Made by a program: the position numbers and the translations under genes. 64,000 nucleotides of DNA from an uncultured Helicobacter sp. (GTDB taxonomy: Bacteria; Campylobacterota; Campylobacteria; Campylobacterales; Helicobacteraceae): positions 1 through 64,000 of the forward strand of contig CASEHV010000011.1 in NCBI GenBank assembly GCA_949287835.1, given 5' to 3'. Below are positions 352 to 48,177 of the stretch, in pieces (position 1 is the first letter of the stretch; each line of letters starts with the position of its first letter). The notes under the pieces were generated by a model that saw only the letters and a list, made by a program, of their open reading frames with translations, did not search any database and was not told where the DNA came from.

Positions 352-2140
352 GTGGTCAAATATATTTCAAGATATCCCATTATTACTAACAGATTTCTTT
401 ATATTGTTTTAGTTAATGCTTTTGTATATTGGTTTGGTAGTATTTATCTTAATGCTACGAGTTTTCAATAGGCACTTGATACGTTTCAATTCTCTTATAT
501 CATCGATTTGATAAAGCATATTTTTAGGAATATCGCCCTGTATTTTATCATCTGCTTTTTATGTGCTATGGTGCTAAAGGAATCCTTGTATCGTATGCTA
601 GAGTGTCTCTTGGTTATTATTAGCTTTGTTGTGGCAGGTATTAATATATTTTTGATGATTAATTTTTACACATGGATTAATCCTATCTTTATTAGTATAT
701 TTCTAAGCATGAATGCAAATGAGGCAAAGGAGTTTCTACATACCTATGCCCTCGCCTCTAATGTCATTATTATTTTAGCTATCTTTGCTGTTGTAAGCAT
801 TATTGCCAACTACAAGATATTTTTCAAATACATTTATAGACCTATGGCAAATTTTGGCATATTCTTAGTCTCTATCGCACTTTTTGCGATTGGATTCACA
901 CATGGCGTGGCATATATTGTGGGTAGGTTTATATATTGGAATGCTAGTGCACATGTGGCTTATAATCTCTATGAGGTCATAATGGAGAAAAATGAGATTA
1001 TGAATTCTTATGCAAAAATCTCTAAAGACATGCAGGAGTATTTAGATTCTAAAACGAATAACAATGGGGGGGGGGGGGGGGTATGTTTTTAAAAAATCAC
1101 TTCATATCCCAAATGTAATTTTAATTATAGGCGAATCTACCCAAAGAAATCTCATGGGGCTATACGGCTACCCTTTGCAAAATAATCCACATTTAACAGA
1201 TCTTCAAAAAAGCGGGAATCTTTTCACATTTACCGATGTGGTCTCGCCGAATGTCTATACGGATTATTGTGTGCCAAAGATTACGACTTTTAGCAATAAT
1301 GATAATAACGACATTCCATGGTATAAGCAAATGAATATCGTAGATACGATGAGACTAGCGGGTTATAATACATATTGGTTTAGCAATCAGGAGGCATTAT
1401 CTATCTGGGGAGCAGGTCCTCAGCTAATTAGCAGACGTGCCGAGCATTTATATAATAGTGCATTGGCAGATACTAGCGGGGCGACTAGCTATGATAGCAT
1501 TTTGCTAAAATCATTTGATAATGCAAAAGTAAGCGGGAAAGAACGTTTCATAGTCTTTCATCTCATGGGCGCACATGTAGGCTATGTAAATCGCTATCCT
1601 AAGACCTATAATATTTTTAATGTAAAAACTCTAAGGGAGAAACATCTTGATTTCCTAGGTAGCAAAAAGCTAGATGATAATCAAGCCACTTTTAGAGCGC
1701 AGTATATCAATGCGATTTTATTTAATGACTATGTGGTTAATGAGATAATCAAGCGATTTAGCAATGAGGATAGCATAGTCTTTTATCTAAGCGACCATGG
1801 CGATGAGGTATATCAAGTCTCAGATTTTGTAGGGCATAGTGCGAGCAATCCCACAAAAAACATGGTAGAGATTCCATTCATGATTTATGTAAGCGATACG
1901 TTTAAGCAAAAGCATAAAGACATTGTAGAGCGGATAGAGAAGTCTCAGAATCTACCCTTCATGAGTGATGGCTTTATCCATGCTTTTTTAGACTTGCTAG
2001 GTATACAATCTCCAGAGCTAGACTACACCAGAAGCCTTTTTAGCAAAGATTATAATAAATCAAGAAAGAGAATAATACTAGGCTTAGATTATGATAAAGA
2101 TATAAAAAATAGCACGACATCTCTAAAGCCAAAACTTTAG
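352..2140 (+). pseudogene. eptA: Lipid A phosphoethanolamine transferase EptA, interrupted by an amber stop and a poly-G frameshift
   Basis: EptA moves phosphoethanolamine from phosphatidylethanolamine onto lipid A at the periplasmic face of the inner membrane. The natural start is GTG 352 behind GAGGA. The frame runs about 39 codons, hits TAG at 469-471, and resumes in the same frame (open from TTG 508) through hydrophobic membrane segments to a G16 tract at 1066-1081. There it shifts out of frame and stops at 1092. The soluble sulfatase-fold catalytic domain follows in the next frame (1064-2140), with the nucleophile region GESTQRN and the metal motif SDHGDE. One G fewer (G15) would fuse the two halves. 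The TAG is one change from CAG (Gln), so this allele carries two independent lesions. An N-terminally trimmed product from TTG 508 is possible only in the G15 state. The 3' end overlaps the convergent hydratase gene by 4 bases. Confidence 0.85.
1066..1081 (+). repeat. G16 phase-variation tract inside eptA
   Basis: Sixteen consecutive G residues join the membrane and catalytic halves of eptA. With 16 G the upstream frame reads five Gly codons, then Val-Cys-Phe and stop. With 15 G it reads five Gly codons, then Tyr-Val-Phe-Lys-Lys and on into the catalytic domain. Slipped-strand changes of tracts this long are a standard switching mechanism in Helicobacter. The shown count is the OFF state, subject to sequencing accuracy. 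Confidence 0.9.
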
Positions 2141-29413: not shown

Positions 29414-29442
29414 TTGACATTTCCGCGAAATGTCCCTTATAG
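29414..29442 (+). promoter_or_regulatory. Promoter with 19-bp palindromic operator for the BCCT-Rieske cassette
   Basis: TTGACA (29414-29419) and TTATAG (29437-29442) form a promoter with exactly 17 bases between them. GACATTTC (29416-29423) and GAAATGTC (29427-29434) are perfect inverted repeats around CGC. They overlap the -35 and fill the spacer, so a dimeric regulator bound here would control access of RNA polymerase. The regulator is unknown. A true -35 hexamer is unusual among Helicobacter housekeeping promoters. Confidence 0.75.
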
Positions 29443-29471
29443 TTAAGTGATTTCAAATGCTGGAGAGGGAT

Positions 29472-31085
29472 ATGAATCCTAAGAAAAAGATAACTCCGCA
29501 TACGTATTCGTCAAATCAGCAGATGGATAAAGTGCTAGTCTTTGTCTCGCTGATTTTTATCGCAGTCATTGCGGGGACTATTACGCTCTTTCCGAGTTTT
29601 GCCAATGAGGGGGCAAAGAAGCTTTTTGGCTGGATTACAGGTGGGCTTGGCTCAAGTGTGCAAATCTTAGTGCTTTTAGGCTTTATCTTTGCACTCTACA
29701 TCGCCATTAGCAAATACGGCAATATCAAGCTAGGCGACCAAGACCCCGAGTATAAGACACCGCCTTGGATTTTCATGTTTATTTGTGCAGGGCTTGGGGC
29801 TTCTACGATTTACTGGGCTATCATTGAGTGGGTGTATTATTATCAAGACCCAGGGCTAGGGCTTGAGCCAAAATCCCAGAGAGCACTTGAGTTTAGCGTG
29901 TCTTTTTCCTTCTTTCACTGGGGTATCGGGGCGTGGGCGACTTATGCTGTCGCCTCTATCGTCATGGCGTATCACTTTCATGTGAGGAAAAATAAAGGTC
30001 TCTCGCTTTCTGGAATCATCTCCGCGATTTTTAATGTGAGTCCGCAGGGAGTCATCGGGCGCATCGTGGATTTGGTCTTTCTTATCGCATCTGTGGGGGC
30101 TTTGACGCTATCGCTTGTCATCTCTGTGGCAACGCTTAGTTCAGGTTTTGCAGACCTGCTAGGATTGCCCAATAATTTTGCCTCACAGGCAATCATCACC
30201 ATAGCCTCTGCTACGATATTCTGCCTTAGTGCCTACATCGGCATCGACAAGGGTATGCAGTCTCTAAGCTCTGTGGTGGGCTATGGGACACTCATCTTTG
30301 CGGCAGTTCTGCTTTTCATAGGACCTACCGAGTTTATTTTGAATAACATTACAAATTCCGTAGGATTAATAGCGCAGAATTTCTTTGAAATGTCCCTTAG
30401 CACAGACCCCTTTGGTAGCGGGAGTTTCACAAAGGGCTGGACTGTGTATTATTGGCTTTGGTGGATTTCCTATGCCCCTGGCTGTGCCTTGTTTGTTACA
30501 CGCGTATCGGCGGGACGCAAGATTCGCGAGGTGATTTGTGCTTTGATTATCGGCGGCGGTGCGGGGTGCTGGTTTTTCTTTGGTGTGCTGGAGAGCTATA
30601 GTATTCACTCTTTCTTGCATAATGTCGTAGATATGGTAGGCATTACCAATCAAGCAAGTGCAGGCGGTGGCGATGGTGGGAATCTCGCGGTGGTCGCATT
30701 CTTGAGTTCGCTGCCTTTTGGCAAGATGTTTTTGCTGATATTCTTGCTTCTCATGATAATTTTCCTAGCCTCACATGTAGATGCAATCGCCTACACCATG
30801 GCGGCTACTTCTACACGCAATTTAGAGGAGGGGCAGGACCCAAGCAGGAATATGAAGCTCTTTTGGTGCATAGTCATCACGCTCATTCCACTCGCCATTC
30901 TCTATGCAAATGCGCCGCTGGATACGATAAAGACTTCGGCAGTTCTAACGGGTCTGCCGTTTTTGATTATTTTGCTGATAACCGTGTTTGGTTTCGTGCG
31001 GTGGTTGCTCGATGATTATGGCAGAGTTCCATCGCACATTATTGACACTCACGTCGTCAAGACGGAGGATTCTAAATCACATTGA
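29472..31085 (+). CDS. BCCT-family transporter (betaine/carnitine/choline)
   Basis: An inner-membrane carrier for quaternary ammonium compounds. I start it at ATG 29472 (MNPKKKI), because GGAGAGG lies 6-12 bases upstream, right after the in-frame ATG 29457. The 537-residue protein has about twelve membrane segments and the family signature [19 protein letters not shown], with further Trp residues of the aromatic substrate box. The substrate could be carnitine, choline, glycine betaine or a related betaine. A Rieske oxygenase gene follows after 11 bases, so the compound is probably catabolised rather than stored. Codon use is richer in CTC, GCG and GGC-type codons than the neighbours. Confidence 0.88.
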
Positions 31086-31096
31086 AGGAGAGAGTT

Positions 31097-32212
31097 ATGT
31101 CTGAGAGAATATCACTGAAACTACCAGAAGGTTTTTGCAAAGATGCAAAAGAGGCTTATACGCTACCTGCGAAGTATTACACTTCAAAGGAAGTGTTCGA
31201 TTATGAGGCAGAGAAGATTTTCGCGAAAGATTGGATTTGTGTCGCACATATCTGTGAGGTGAGTAAGCCAAACGACTACATTACGCGTGAGATTTTGAAT
31301 GAAGAGATTCTCATACTGCGTGGGCGCGACAATGTCTTGCGTGCATTCTATAACGTCTGTCCGCACAGGGGGCATAGGGTAATGCAAGGCTCTGGCGTGG
31401 CAAAAAATGAGCTTGTCTGCCCTTATCACGCGTGGGCTTATAAGCACGATGGCACGCTTTCTAGTGCGAGAAACTGCAACAATGTCTATAATTTTAAGAA
31501 AGATGACTTCTGCCTTACCCCGCTAAAATGCGAGGAGTATGGTGGCTTTGTGTTTATCAATATGGACCCAGATTGCACAAAAAGTGTCGAGCAGCAATTG
31601 CCCGGTCTAAAAGATGCAATCCTTAAGGCTAGACCTGAGATGTATGATTTGAAACTTGCGGCTAGATTCGTAACCCGCACTCCTGCAAATTGGAAAAACA
31701 TCGTGGATAATTACATGGAATGCTACCACTGCGCCCCCGCACACCCGGGCTTCTCTAGCTCTGTGCAAGTGGGCAAATATTGGCATAATATGTATGAGAA
31801 TTGGACACTGCAATACGGGCTTGCCATTCCCTCAGACAAATCCTTTAATTTCGAAGGAGAGTCTTCATTCTCTGGATTCTGGCTGTGGCCTTGCACAATG
31901 TGGAATGCAACTCCTATGCCCGGAATGCTGACTGCGATTTTTGAGTTCCCCATAGATTCTGAGACGACATTGCAAAATTATGATATTTTCTTTACCAATG
32001 AGGAGCTAACGCAGCAGCAAAAAGACTTGATTGAATGGTATCGCGATGTCTTCCGCCCAGAGGATTTGCGTCTTGTAGAGAGTGTGCAGAAAGGACTGCA
32101 CTCACGAGGCTACAAAGGACAGGGCAGAATCATGGCAGATGACAGCAGCTCGGGTATATCTGAGCACGGCATAGCTTATTTTCATAATCTTGTGGCAAGT
32201 AAGTATGAGTAG
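31097..32212 (+). CDS. Rieske non-haem iron oxygenase, quaternary-ammonium type (CntA/GbcA-like)
   Basis: Oxygenase alpha subunit that would use O2 and reductant to cleave or demethylate a quaternary amine. From ATG 31097 (AAGGAG upstream) it is 371 residues. Rieske [2Fe-2S] ligands are Cys88/His90 (CPHRGH) and Cys108/His111 (CPYH). The mononuclear iron site is in NYMECYHCAPAHP with His211 and His216, and an acidic ligand is probable at Asp323. Glu208 stands where Asp sits in most Rieske oxygenases, as reported for carnitine monooxygenase CntA. No reductase gene (CntB/GbcB type) is adjacent. The substrate is inferred from the BCCT neighbour: carnitine, glycine betaine or stachydrine-like. Confidence 0.82.
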   Translation: MSERISLKLPEGFCKDAKEAYTLPAKYYTSKEVFDYEAEKIFAKDWICVAHICEVSKPNDYITREILNEEILILRGRDNVLRAFYNVCPHRGHRVMQGSGVAKNELVCPYHAWAYKHDGTLSSARNCNNVYNFKKDDFCLTPLKCEEYGGFVFINMDPDCTKSVEQQLPGLKDAILKARPEMYDLKLAARFVTRTPANWKNIVDNYMECYHCAPAHPGFSSSVQVGKYWHNMYENWTLQYGLAIPSDKSFNFEGESSFSGFWLWPCTMWNATPMPGMLTAIFEFPIDSETTLQNYDIFFTNEELTQQQKDLIEWYRDVFRPEDLRLVESVQKGLHSRGYKGQGRIMADDSSSGISEHGIAYFHNLVASKYE

Positions 32213-32218
32213 GAAGTA

Positions 32219-32234
32219 GGGGGGGGGGGGGGGG
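32219..32234 (+). repeat. G16 tract after the oxygenase stop codon
   Basis: Sixteen G residues begin 7 bases past the oxygenase stop. They lie in no supported coding frame. They may affect mRNA 3' structure, or may be the stub of a lost phase-variable gene. Confidence 0.85.
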
Positions 32235-42588: not shown

Positions 42589-44385
42589 CTATCCATTTTT
42601 AATCTTTCTAAAATCAAATAGGAATTTTATATATCCTCCGATATAGCGAGTTTTATATGCCTTTAGAAAAGCACATCCGATTTTATATTGTTTTGTTTGT
42701 TGTATTTTTTCATTATTAGATTCTACTATACTGCCATTCGTTTTATAGTATTTACGCAGTTTGCAACCTACGCGATATATTGCGTAAAGACGCTTGATAC
42801 CCCCCCCCCCCCGTTGTAATATTTCATTACCTAATTTGAATTGAATATCTTTATCTGTTATTTTTAAAAATTGTGAAACATCATTGGTGCCTGTAATAGT
42901 GGCTCTTGTTTCATCAATATTTAATATTCCATATTCGTTTATCAATTCATCAAAAAAATCTCTACACTTAGCAATGTTTTCTTCGCTTATGCCATTTTTT
43001 CTCATAAACTCTAAATCAGTTTTTACACTTTCTTTTATATCCGGCAGTTTTATACCACTTAGACATTTTGTATTTCTTATTGTTAAATCACGTTCAAAAT
43101 TGACATTTTTTAGCCGCATTATCTGGGAATAATAAAAGAATGCTTGATGATTCTCCCAAGTTCCACCATGCGGGAGCGATAAAAAAGGAATTTCATATAA
43201 ATAGTTGCAAAGAGCAAGAACTGCCGCCCTCTTTCCATAAGGCATACCTTGACCAGTACCCATTTCAAAATGTCCATCCGCAACCTCATCAAATCCCATT
43301 TTCTCTAAAACTTCTAAAGCAAGCGGTTTTATAACATCTGCATCATTTCTAGCTATTACCACATAGTCATACTCAAAGACGTTATTTCTCTCATACTCCT
43401 TCATTAGCTCTACACATCTATACATGCCTGTGTATAGCTTCGTATATACATCTTGTTGTTTTAAAGTTAGCTGATTATCAAATCTGTATAGTTTAATCCT
43501 TTGATTATTAGATGCAAATTTGGAAAAATCTTCCTCATCTACCTTGCCAAAATACTCAACCTGAAGCGCCTTGTATGTATTTGGCATCTCTTTTGAAAAC
43601 GTCTCATGCGTTTCTATAAATGTAGGAACAATATCTGCAATATTGTTTTTAAAGATGCGTCTAGCCCAGTGGAGTCCACCGCACAATGTGGGATATACAT
43701 GATACTCGTCCCAGCTAAATATAAATACATCTGCATCAAGTGGCGCCGCTAGATTATCTATAATATCCTGCAAAGTATCCTTGTAAGAGCCTCGAAAAAT
43801 GCCATAAGTGCATACTGCCACTCGTTTTTTTCTTTTATTATAGCCTTGTGCTCTATCGCAGAATTTTTCCATTAGCTTACGATATAGCAGACCAGCACCC
43901 ATAGACCGATTTTGAAGCGCTTGGAAAAAGAAAAATGTAAATGGACTTTCCCTAAACATCTTTGGTTCAAAAAATTCTCTAAAGTCCTCCTGCCTTGATA
44001 GCATGAAAGATAAAAGTGCATTGCAACCATAGAATCTGCTAAAAAGATTTGGATATAAATAAATCTTGAAAAAATATTTTTTTGCCAAATCAAAGGTTAA
44101 ATTATTATTTTTTATAGCAAGATTTATTTTATACAATGCTATAAGCTCATCTTTTAAAAATTCTACACCCTCCAGCTCCTCCTCTCTTAGCCTCTTTAAA
44201 TGCTCAACTCTAAGTCCTCTATATTCATCAATAAGCGTAAATAATTCGTCAAAATCCGCAATGTCATATAAAAATTCTAAATACTGCTCTCTTAAGCTAT
44301 CATTGTTTTTTAAAATATTTCGCAACATATCAAAATCTAAATTTTTCTTTAGAATCTCAATCTGTCCTCGCAACGAATTGCTCAT
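42589..44385 (-). CDS. Phase-variable protein, probable surface-glycan biosynthesis
   Basis: About 598 residues from ATG 44385 (MSNSLRG); an in-frame ATG 12 bases upstream has no ribosome site. No close family is certain. The central stretch VAVCTYGIFRGSYKDTLQDI, then DADVFIFSWDEYH and YDYVVIARNDADVI, resembles WavE-like LPS/glycan synthesis proteins with a nucleotide-sugar-like acidic motif (RNDAD). Near residue 525 a G13 tract encodes RGGGG in frame, so the allele shown is ON. Losing or gaining one G would replace the last 70 residues by 10-15 foreign ones. An A13 tract sits 45-57 bases before the start. The low-similarity N-terminal 180 residues are helical. Confidence 0.55.
   Translation of the reverse strand: MSNSLRGQIEILKKNLDFDMLRNILKNNDSLREQYLEFLYDIADFDELFTLIDEYRGLRVEHLKRLREEELEGVEFLKDELIALYKINLAIKNNNLTFDLAKKYFFKIYLYPNLFSRFYGCNALLSFMLSRQEDFREFFEPKMFRESPFTFFFFQALQNRSMGAGLLYRKLMEKFCDRAQGYNKRKKRVAVCTYGIFRGSYKDTLQDIIDNLAAPLDADVFIFSWDEYHVYPTLCGGLHWARRIFKNNIADIVPTFIETHETFSKEMPNTYKALQVEYFGKVDEEDFSKFASNNQRIKLYRFDNQLTLKQQDVYTKLYTGMYRCVELMKEYERNNVFEYDYVVIARNDADVIKPLALEVLEKMGFDEVADGHFEMGTGQGMPYGKRAAVLALCNYLYEIPFLSLPHGGTWENHQAFFYYSQIMRLKNVNFERDLTIRNTKCLSGIKLPDIKESVKTDLEFMRKNGISEENIAKCRDFFDELINEYGILNIDETRATITGTNDVSQFLKITDKDIQFKLGNEILQRGGGGIKRLYAIYRVGCKLRKYYKTNGSIVESNNEKIQQTKQYKIGCAFLKAYKTRYIGGYIKFLFDFRKIKNG
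42800..42812 (-). repeat. C13 (coding G13) tract in the glycan gene
   Basis: Thirteen C on the plus strand read as CGG GGG GGG GGG GGT in the leftward gene. The frame passes through, meaning ON. Other lengths truncate the C-terminal 70 residues. Confidence 0.88.
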
Positions 44386-44429
44386 ACATATCCCCATATA
44401 ACACCAAAATTACATGCTAAGATTCTATC

Positions 44430-47682: not shown

Positions 47683-48177
47683 TTAAAACCCCGCATTTTT
47701 TAGCTGTGCAGCCCAGGCGTCTAATCTGCCATCTGTTTTATCATCTGCATTTGCCTCATCTATGGCAAGACCAAAAAATTTACCATTCTCAGCGCCTTTT
47801 GAGGAATCAAACTCATAGCCGTCTGTGGAAGTCTCACCTACGATTTTCGCACCTTTTGCGACATTCTTTAGATGATATAGTGCATCACAGAATGTATCGC
47901 TATAGCTATCCGCATCGCCTAGCGCTAGTAGTGCTACTAATTTCCCCTCAAATTTACCACTGCCATCTAGTGCCTCAGCAAAGCTTTCCCAATCGCTTTG
48001 CAACTCACCATCACCCCATGTAGAACTAGCTAGAATGATTTTGTCAAATTTTGCAATGTCATCTGGAGAAGCACTTCCTACATCTACTAGCTCTGCACCG
48101 CCAAGCTTTCCTGCTAGTCTCTCGCACACATCTGTTGTAGTCCCGTTGTCGCTACCGACAAATATTCCAATACTCAT
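47683..48177 (-). CDS. fldA: Flavodoxin
   Basis: Small FMN electron carrier, acceptor for pyruvate and 2-oxoglutarate oxidoreductases in Helicobacter. The 164-residue protein has the FMN-phosphate loop GSDNGTTTDVCERLAG, SSTWGDGELQSDW and LLALGDADSYSDTFCDAL. It starts at ATG 48177 after AAGGAATTACTT. It is strongly acidic. It lies divergent to the aminotransferase gene. Complete. Confidence 0.96.
   Translation of the reverse strand: MSIGIFVGSDNGTTTDVCERLAGKLGGAELVDVGSASPDDIAKFDKIILASSTWGDGELQSDWESFAEALDGSGKFEGKLVALLALGDADSYSDTFCDALYHLKNVAKGAKIVGETSTDGYEFDSSKGAENGKFFGLAIDEANADDKTDGRLDAWAAQLKNAGF

Follow-up and report, generated by a model that had tools for sequence, protein, structure and literature searches.

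We report that an uncultured Helicobacter sp. encodes the carnitine monooxygenase oxygenase subunit CntA directly downstream of a YeaV-type BCCT carrier, and that the enzyme is CntA and not a complete CntA/CntB system, because the reductase CntB is absent from both the locus and the genome. The new element is this reductase-less state, which is conserved across a clade of Helicobacter species and is under selection in part of that clade. We lean, with modest confidence, towards reading the pair as an acquired carnitine-uptake and carnitine-cleavage module that lacks its reductase and would take electrons from a donor unrelated to CntB, a flavodoxin or ferredoxin being favoured.

Background

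Cardiovascular disease has been associated with the trimethylamine (TMA) that bacteria form from carnitine; in surveys of the gut, cntA accompanied by cntB is found mainly in Enterobacteriaceae. The DNA analysed here (hereafter the window) is a stretch of 64,000 nucleotides in which an earlier note had singled out a carrier-oxygenase pair as the most likely undescribed system. The word undescribed is not supported: the enzyme family is well characterised, and a 2017 gene catalogue lists cntA in Epsilonproteobacteria (PMC5433236), so its presence alone is not new. No description of Helicobacter CntA at the gene level, or of its lack of CntB, was found in the open-access literature searched.

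Methods

Protein identity, integrity of the active site, acquisition, purifying selection between two relatives, and the lack, across the whole genome, of CntB and of any FNR-type NAD-binding domain were computed. CntB was searched for using E. coli YeaX as the query, a two-sequence profile, and Pfam PF00175; the positive control was Anaerobiospirillum, in which CntB was found at 635 bits. Ten non-Helicobacter CntA loci were compared, namely those of E. coli, Klebsiella (two records), Psychrobacter, Acinetobacter, Burkholderia, Anaerobiospirillum, and three relatives in Anaerobiospirillum's order.

Results and discussion

Locus organization

The carrier and oxygenase genes are both intact and co-directional (plus strand), with 11 bp between the carrier stop and the oxygenase ATG by their likely starts, and form an operon; the tight pairing that the earlier note described is thus borne out. 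The carrier reading frame (29457-31085) is extendable upstream to an ATG at 29457, but translation likely begins at ATG 29472, given a ribosome-binding site (GGAGAGG, 29461-29467) and the N-termini of related carriers (MNPK...), yielding a 537-aa protein (29472-31085). The oxygenase ATG at 31097 is preceded by AAGGAG. Upstream of the pair lies a putative promoter-like site (TTGACA-18-TATAGT, 29414-29443, plus strand) with 11 of 12 consensus matches, whose spacer region includes a perfect palindrome with 8-bp arms (29416-29434) that is a possible operator and occurs once in the window at 0 mismatches. The palindrome was sought in the relatives' loci and was absent, and the idea of a shared palindromic operator was dropped. 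A 21-bp piece of the promoter/palindrome region (29419-29439) is repeated at 86% within the carrier gene (30379-30399), which may reflect chance or a second operator.

The pair is flanked by folP and enolase, both on the minus strand and thus opposite in direction to it. No reductase lies beside cntA at this locus, as the earlier note had observed, and tblastn revealed no CntB remnant 3' of cntA in the window. Repeats flanking the pair, sought as marks of insertion, were only short and probably due to chance. A run of 16 G (32219-32234, plus strand) begins 6 bp past the stop of cntA; no long reading frame contains or spans it, and a phase-variable frame across the run was accordingly discarded. 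Two other homopolymeric runs were observed in the window. At 508-2140 (plus strand), two reading frames (508-1092 and 1064-2140, the latter a sulfatase-family protein, Pfam PF00884) overlap in different frames and meet at a G16 run (1066-1081), and the pair looks like a phase-variable gene. At 42589-44397 (minus strand), a 602-aa reading frame with no Pfam match has a C13 run near its 3' end (42800-42812) and is likely another phase-variable gene.

Identity of the oxygenase and carrier

The oxygenase (31097-32212, plus strand; 371 aa) is of the CntA/YeaW type on the basis of its match to the solved structure of A. baumannii CntA (6y8j; 561 bits, E=1e-167), the next-best solved structure being a different enzyme at 123 bits. 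It is 64-69% identical to the oxygenases of the CntA/CntB (A. baumannii) and YeaW/YeaX (E. coli) systems, the value for E. coli YeaW being 69%, and has in common with them the Rieske, iron, bridging Glu, Cys pair, and carnitine-pocket residues. The Rieske ligands are C88, H90, C108, and H111 (C-X-H / C-X2-H pattern), the 2-His-1-Asp iron site consists of H211, H216, and D323, and the bridging residue is Glu208 (E205 in A. baumannii), a Glu in place of Asp; this residue and the length of 371 residues are as the earlier note had given them. All 14 A. baumannii active-site residues checked and all four Rieske ligands are kept, including invariant Y203, Y225, F258, N270, Y295, Y315, and F319 (A. 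baumannii numbering) of the carnitine pocket, the roles of which have been defined (PMC7948474), and the Cys pair of CntA is likewise invariant.

While GbcA and the stachydrine demethylase Stc2 likewise belong to the broader set of Rieske oxygenases acting on quaternary ammonium compounds, the window oxygenase scores far lower against both than against CntA. GbcA identity was ruled out (NCBIfam NF058607, 161 bits vs a cut-off of 670), as was that of a stachydrine demethylase, by score (PDB entry 4qup, 109 bits vs 561 for CntA). Grouping with aromatic-ring oxygenases, which the earlier note had named as contrary evidence, did not occur; the NCBIfam benzoate, anthranilate, and HcaE models gave 65-98 bits vs cut-offs of 672-830. 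Of the CntA/GbcA type and the TMA or demethylated products originally proposed, the CntA half and TMA are consequently retained, and the GbcA half and betaine demethylation are not: an enzyme of the CntA/YeaW type would be expected to form TMA from carnitine and gamma-butyrobetaine. Judging by the conserved residues, these two compounds are the likely substrates, and the products from carnitine are likely TMA and malic semialdehyde.

The carrier passed the NCBIfam equivalog model for YeaV (PRK09950; 787.7 bits, cut-off 647), against which the carriers of H. aurati and H. muridarum scored 762.8 and 747.3, respectively; it also matched Pfam BCCT (1.9e-116) and is 60% identical to E. coli YeaV. 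It failed the model for the CaiT carnitine/gamma-butyrobetaine antiporter (PRK03356, 345 bits vs a cut-off of 541), and likewise those for the glycine-betaine carrier and BetT. As in the window, a BCCT carrier lies immediately upstream of the oxygenase in the E. coli and Klebsiella loci.

Acquisition and distribution

Codon usage sets the pair apart, as the earlier note had suspected. Among 89 ORFs drawn from six stretches of the genome, the carrier and oxygenase have the two lowest codon-fit scores, and their GC3 values (0.53 and 0.49 vs 0.35 +/- 0.05) place codon use and GC content outside the sampled range. Since the two are the most codon-atypical of these genes, and since their closest non-Helicobacter relative is gammaproteobacterial (Anaerobiospirillum), the pair is, judged by composition and phylogeny, horizontally acquired, in agreement with the acquisition previously suggested.

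Among 397 Campylobacterota (68 genera sampled), CntA was found in a single Helicobacter genus-level group, in which 4 of the 14 genomes searched carry it: the window genome, H. muridarum, H. aurati, and uncultured Helicobacter A38 bin 23. In the oxygenase tree, the Helicobacter copies form one clade (support 97/95; 93/94 in a smaller set) with Anaerobiospirillum sp. NML120449 as its sister (100/100), the remaining surrounding CntA sequences being gamma- and betaproteobacterial; the carrier tree, from which partial, long-branched BCCT rows were left out, concurs (88/92 and 85/99). An alternative topology uniting the window and Anaerobiospirillum copies as a single clade was mildly rejected (p-AU 0.03). 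Outside Helicobacter, the NML120449 locus (L028) is the closest, with 75% identity for CntA and 66% for the carrier, but differs in retaining CntB (44% identical to YeaX) 2 kb downstream of its cntA. As NML120449 alone has CntA among 57 Anaerobiospirillum-family genomes, the gene seems to have been acquired there too.

The other three Helicobacter pairs have the two genes in the same order as the window and, like it, no CntB; they occupy other genomic sites, however, and have a GC content of 33-39% vs 45-47% for the window copy. With four different neighbourhoods for four copies, vertical, syntenic inheritance was ruled out; the neighbourhoods and the much higher GC of the window copy together suggest that the two-gene cassette arrived separately or was relocated repeatedly. 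In A38 bin 23 (L009:6331-9117), the pair is broken, a frameshift splitting the carrier and an in-frame TAA splitting cntA.

Absence of the reductase

All ten non-Helicobacter CntA loci compared (57-75% identical) have CntB no more than about 5 kb away, although it is present in fragments in one Klebsiella record; most of these loci also hold an MSA dehydrogenase and a D-malate enzyme. The window locus, by comparison with those of CntA/CntB and YeaW/YeaX, has no CntB/YeaX, MSA dehydrogenase, D-malate dehydrogenase, or LysR regulator, and its genome differs further in having no FNR-type reductase of any kind. The earlier note had proposed looking for a CntB/GbcB-type ferredoxin reductase elsewhere in the genome; neither single-protein nor profile searches found a CntB homologue in any of the four CntA-bearing Helicobacter genomes, and none of the four has an FNR-type NAD_binding_1 domain. 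The window genome has plant-type ferredoxin domains solely in a pair of NuoG-like proteins, each about 1000 aa long, in the nuo cluster. The four are draft genomes (the window genome being in 37 contigs and 99.5% complete), and the absence of CntB from all of them is strong evidence, short of proof.

Between H. aurati and H. muridarum, the dN/dS ratio is 0.044 for cntA and 0.10 for the carrier, values that derive from two relatives only and from a high dS near saturation. The copies of these two species are under purifying selection, and their reductase-less state is thus maintained under selection. The residues of YeaW that dock CntB (R83, K104, K117, and E330; PMC9508527) are invariant in every CntB-bearing copy aligned and in the window and uncultured Helicobacter copies, but H. 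aurati has RRNE and H. muridarum RKNE in place of RKKE. A relaxed or changed docking surface in these two species is no more than suggestive, given that K117S is harmless in E. coli. That the window copy retains all four residues could mean that CntB was lost recently, as opposed to the enzyme having adapted to another partner.

Proposed function and alternatives

From the above, we infer substrate, activity, electron donor, and fate of the product as follows. The YeaV-type carrier would bring in carnitine, and probably gamma-butyrobetaine or choline as well, and a CntA-type trimer would use O2 and two electrons to cut the C-N bond, releasing TMA and malic semialdehyde. The canonical operon's reductase (CntB), dehydrogenase, and D-malate enzyme would not have been retained and, as the reductase was not kept, electrons would be supplied by some protein with no relation to it; the favoured source is the pool of low-potential flavodoxin and ferredoxin that drives the metabolism of Campylobacterota. 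The unlinked donor that the earlier note had called for is in keeping with the absence of a reductase from the locus. In Campylobacterota, electrons pass via flavodoxin/ferredoxin from pyruvate and 2-oxoglutarate oxidoreductases, and complex I likely uses these carriers, not NADH (PMC6682613); the flavodoxin FldA is encoded in the window itself (47683-48177). Flavodoxin as donor to CntA is favoured but unproven, and no documented case of a flavodoxin-driven CntA was found in the literature. The E. coli and A. baumannii oxygenases each accept the other's reductase (PMC9508527), and non-native reductases often work with Rieske oxygenases (PMC12445004).

A second type of Rieske oxygenase, of about 357 aa, was observed in H. 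muridarum (L014:6422-7492) and in another member of the genus (L013:6520-7596, genome G003), in clusters that also encode ketosynthase-III-like proteins and short-chain dehydrogenases. As the H. muridarum genome encodes no FNR-type reductase for this enzyme either, a shared non-FNR donor is plausible.

Malic semialdehyde could plausibly be oxidised by the SSADH of the window genome (G000:C28), which is 54% identical to the dehydrogenase of the A. baumannii cnt locus and keeps R166, R284, S447, E256, and C290, that is, all substrate-binding and catalytic residues named for MSA-DH (PMC11353897). The aminotransferase-like ORF next to it points to a main role in GABA catabolism. In a rather unlikely alternative, the pair mainly imports carnitine or betaine as compatible solutes and CntA slowly trims the carnitine pool, with little TMA formed and carnitine not serving as a carbon source. 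The dedicated MSA and D-malate dehydrogenases of the canonical operon are indeed missing at the locus, and a 2024 study predicts such a role for cntA clusters without msadh and/or mdh (PMC11353897); against this, an SSADH with all the MSA-DH substrate residues is encoded elsewhere in the genome, and a plain solute carrier has no need of a CntA under selection.

In the systems studied, CntA activity required CntB (PMC7948474), so an enzyme without CntB could be inactive. That the pair is a decaying or non-functional acquisition, its enzyme idle because CntB was not transferred, is slightly less probable still. CntB was not found, the distribution is patchy (4 of 14 genomes), and, of the four Helicobacter pairs, that of A38 bin 23 is broken, which counts against a functional module; conversely, the active site is intact in three species, the cntA dN/dS between H. 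aurati and H. muridarum is low, and promoter-like and ribosome-binding sites are present. Operation by a peroxide shunt, with H2O2 replacing NADH and the reductase, is very improbable: it has been reported for A. baumannii CntA without NADH and CntB (PMC10952381) and would suit a genome with no FNR-type protein, but that chemistry was carried out in vitro at millimolar H2O2, and no Helicobacter copy has lost the bridging Glu or any Rieske ligand, residues that electron delivery needs and the shunt does not.

Conclusions

Taking an acquired uptake and cleavage module with a donor other than CntB as the preferred reading, we put at about even the chance that this gut Helicobacter lineage has a CntB-independent, TMA-forming carnitine monooxygenase in a microaerophile, fed by flavodoxin, ferredoxin, or H2O2. 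Either Helicobacter CntA is powered by some other means, or the enzyme behaves differently from its counterparts. If the orphan CntA does not work, it would be a plain example of selection preserving a catalytic subunit for some less obvious reason. If it works, cntB synteny would be the wrong filter, microaerophiles living where O2 is available would become candidate sources of TMA, and these species would offer a natural system for studying how Rieske oxygenases can exchange one reductase for another.
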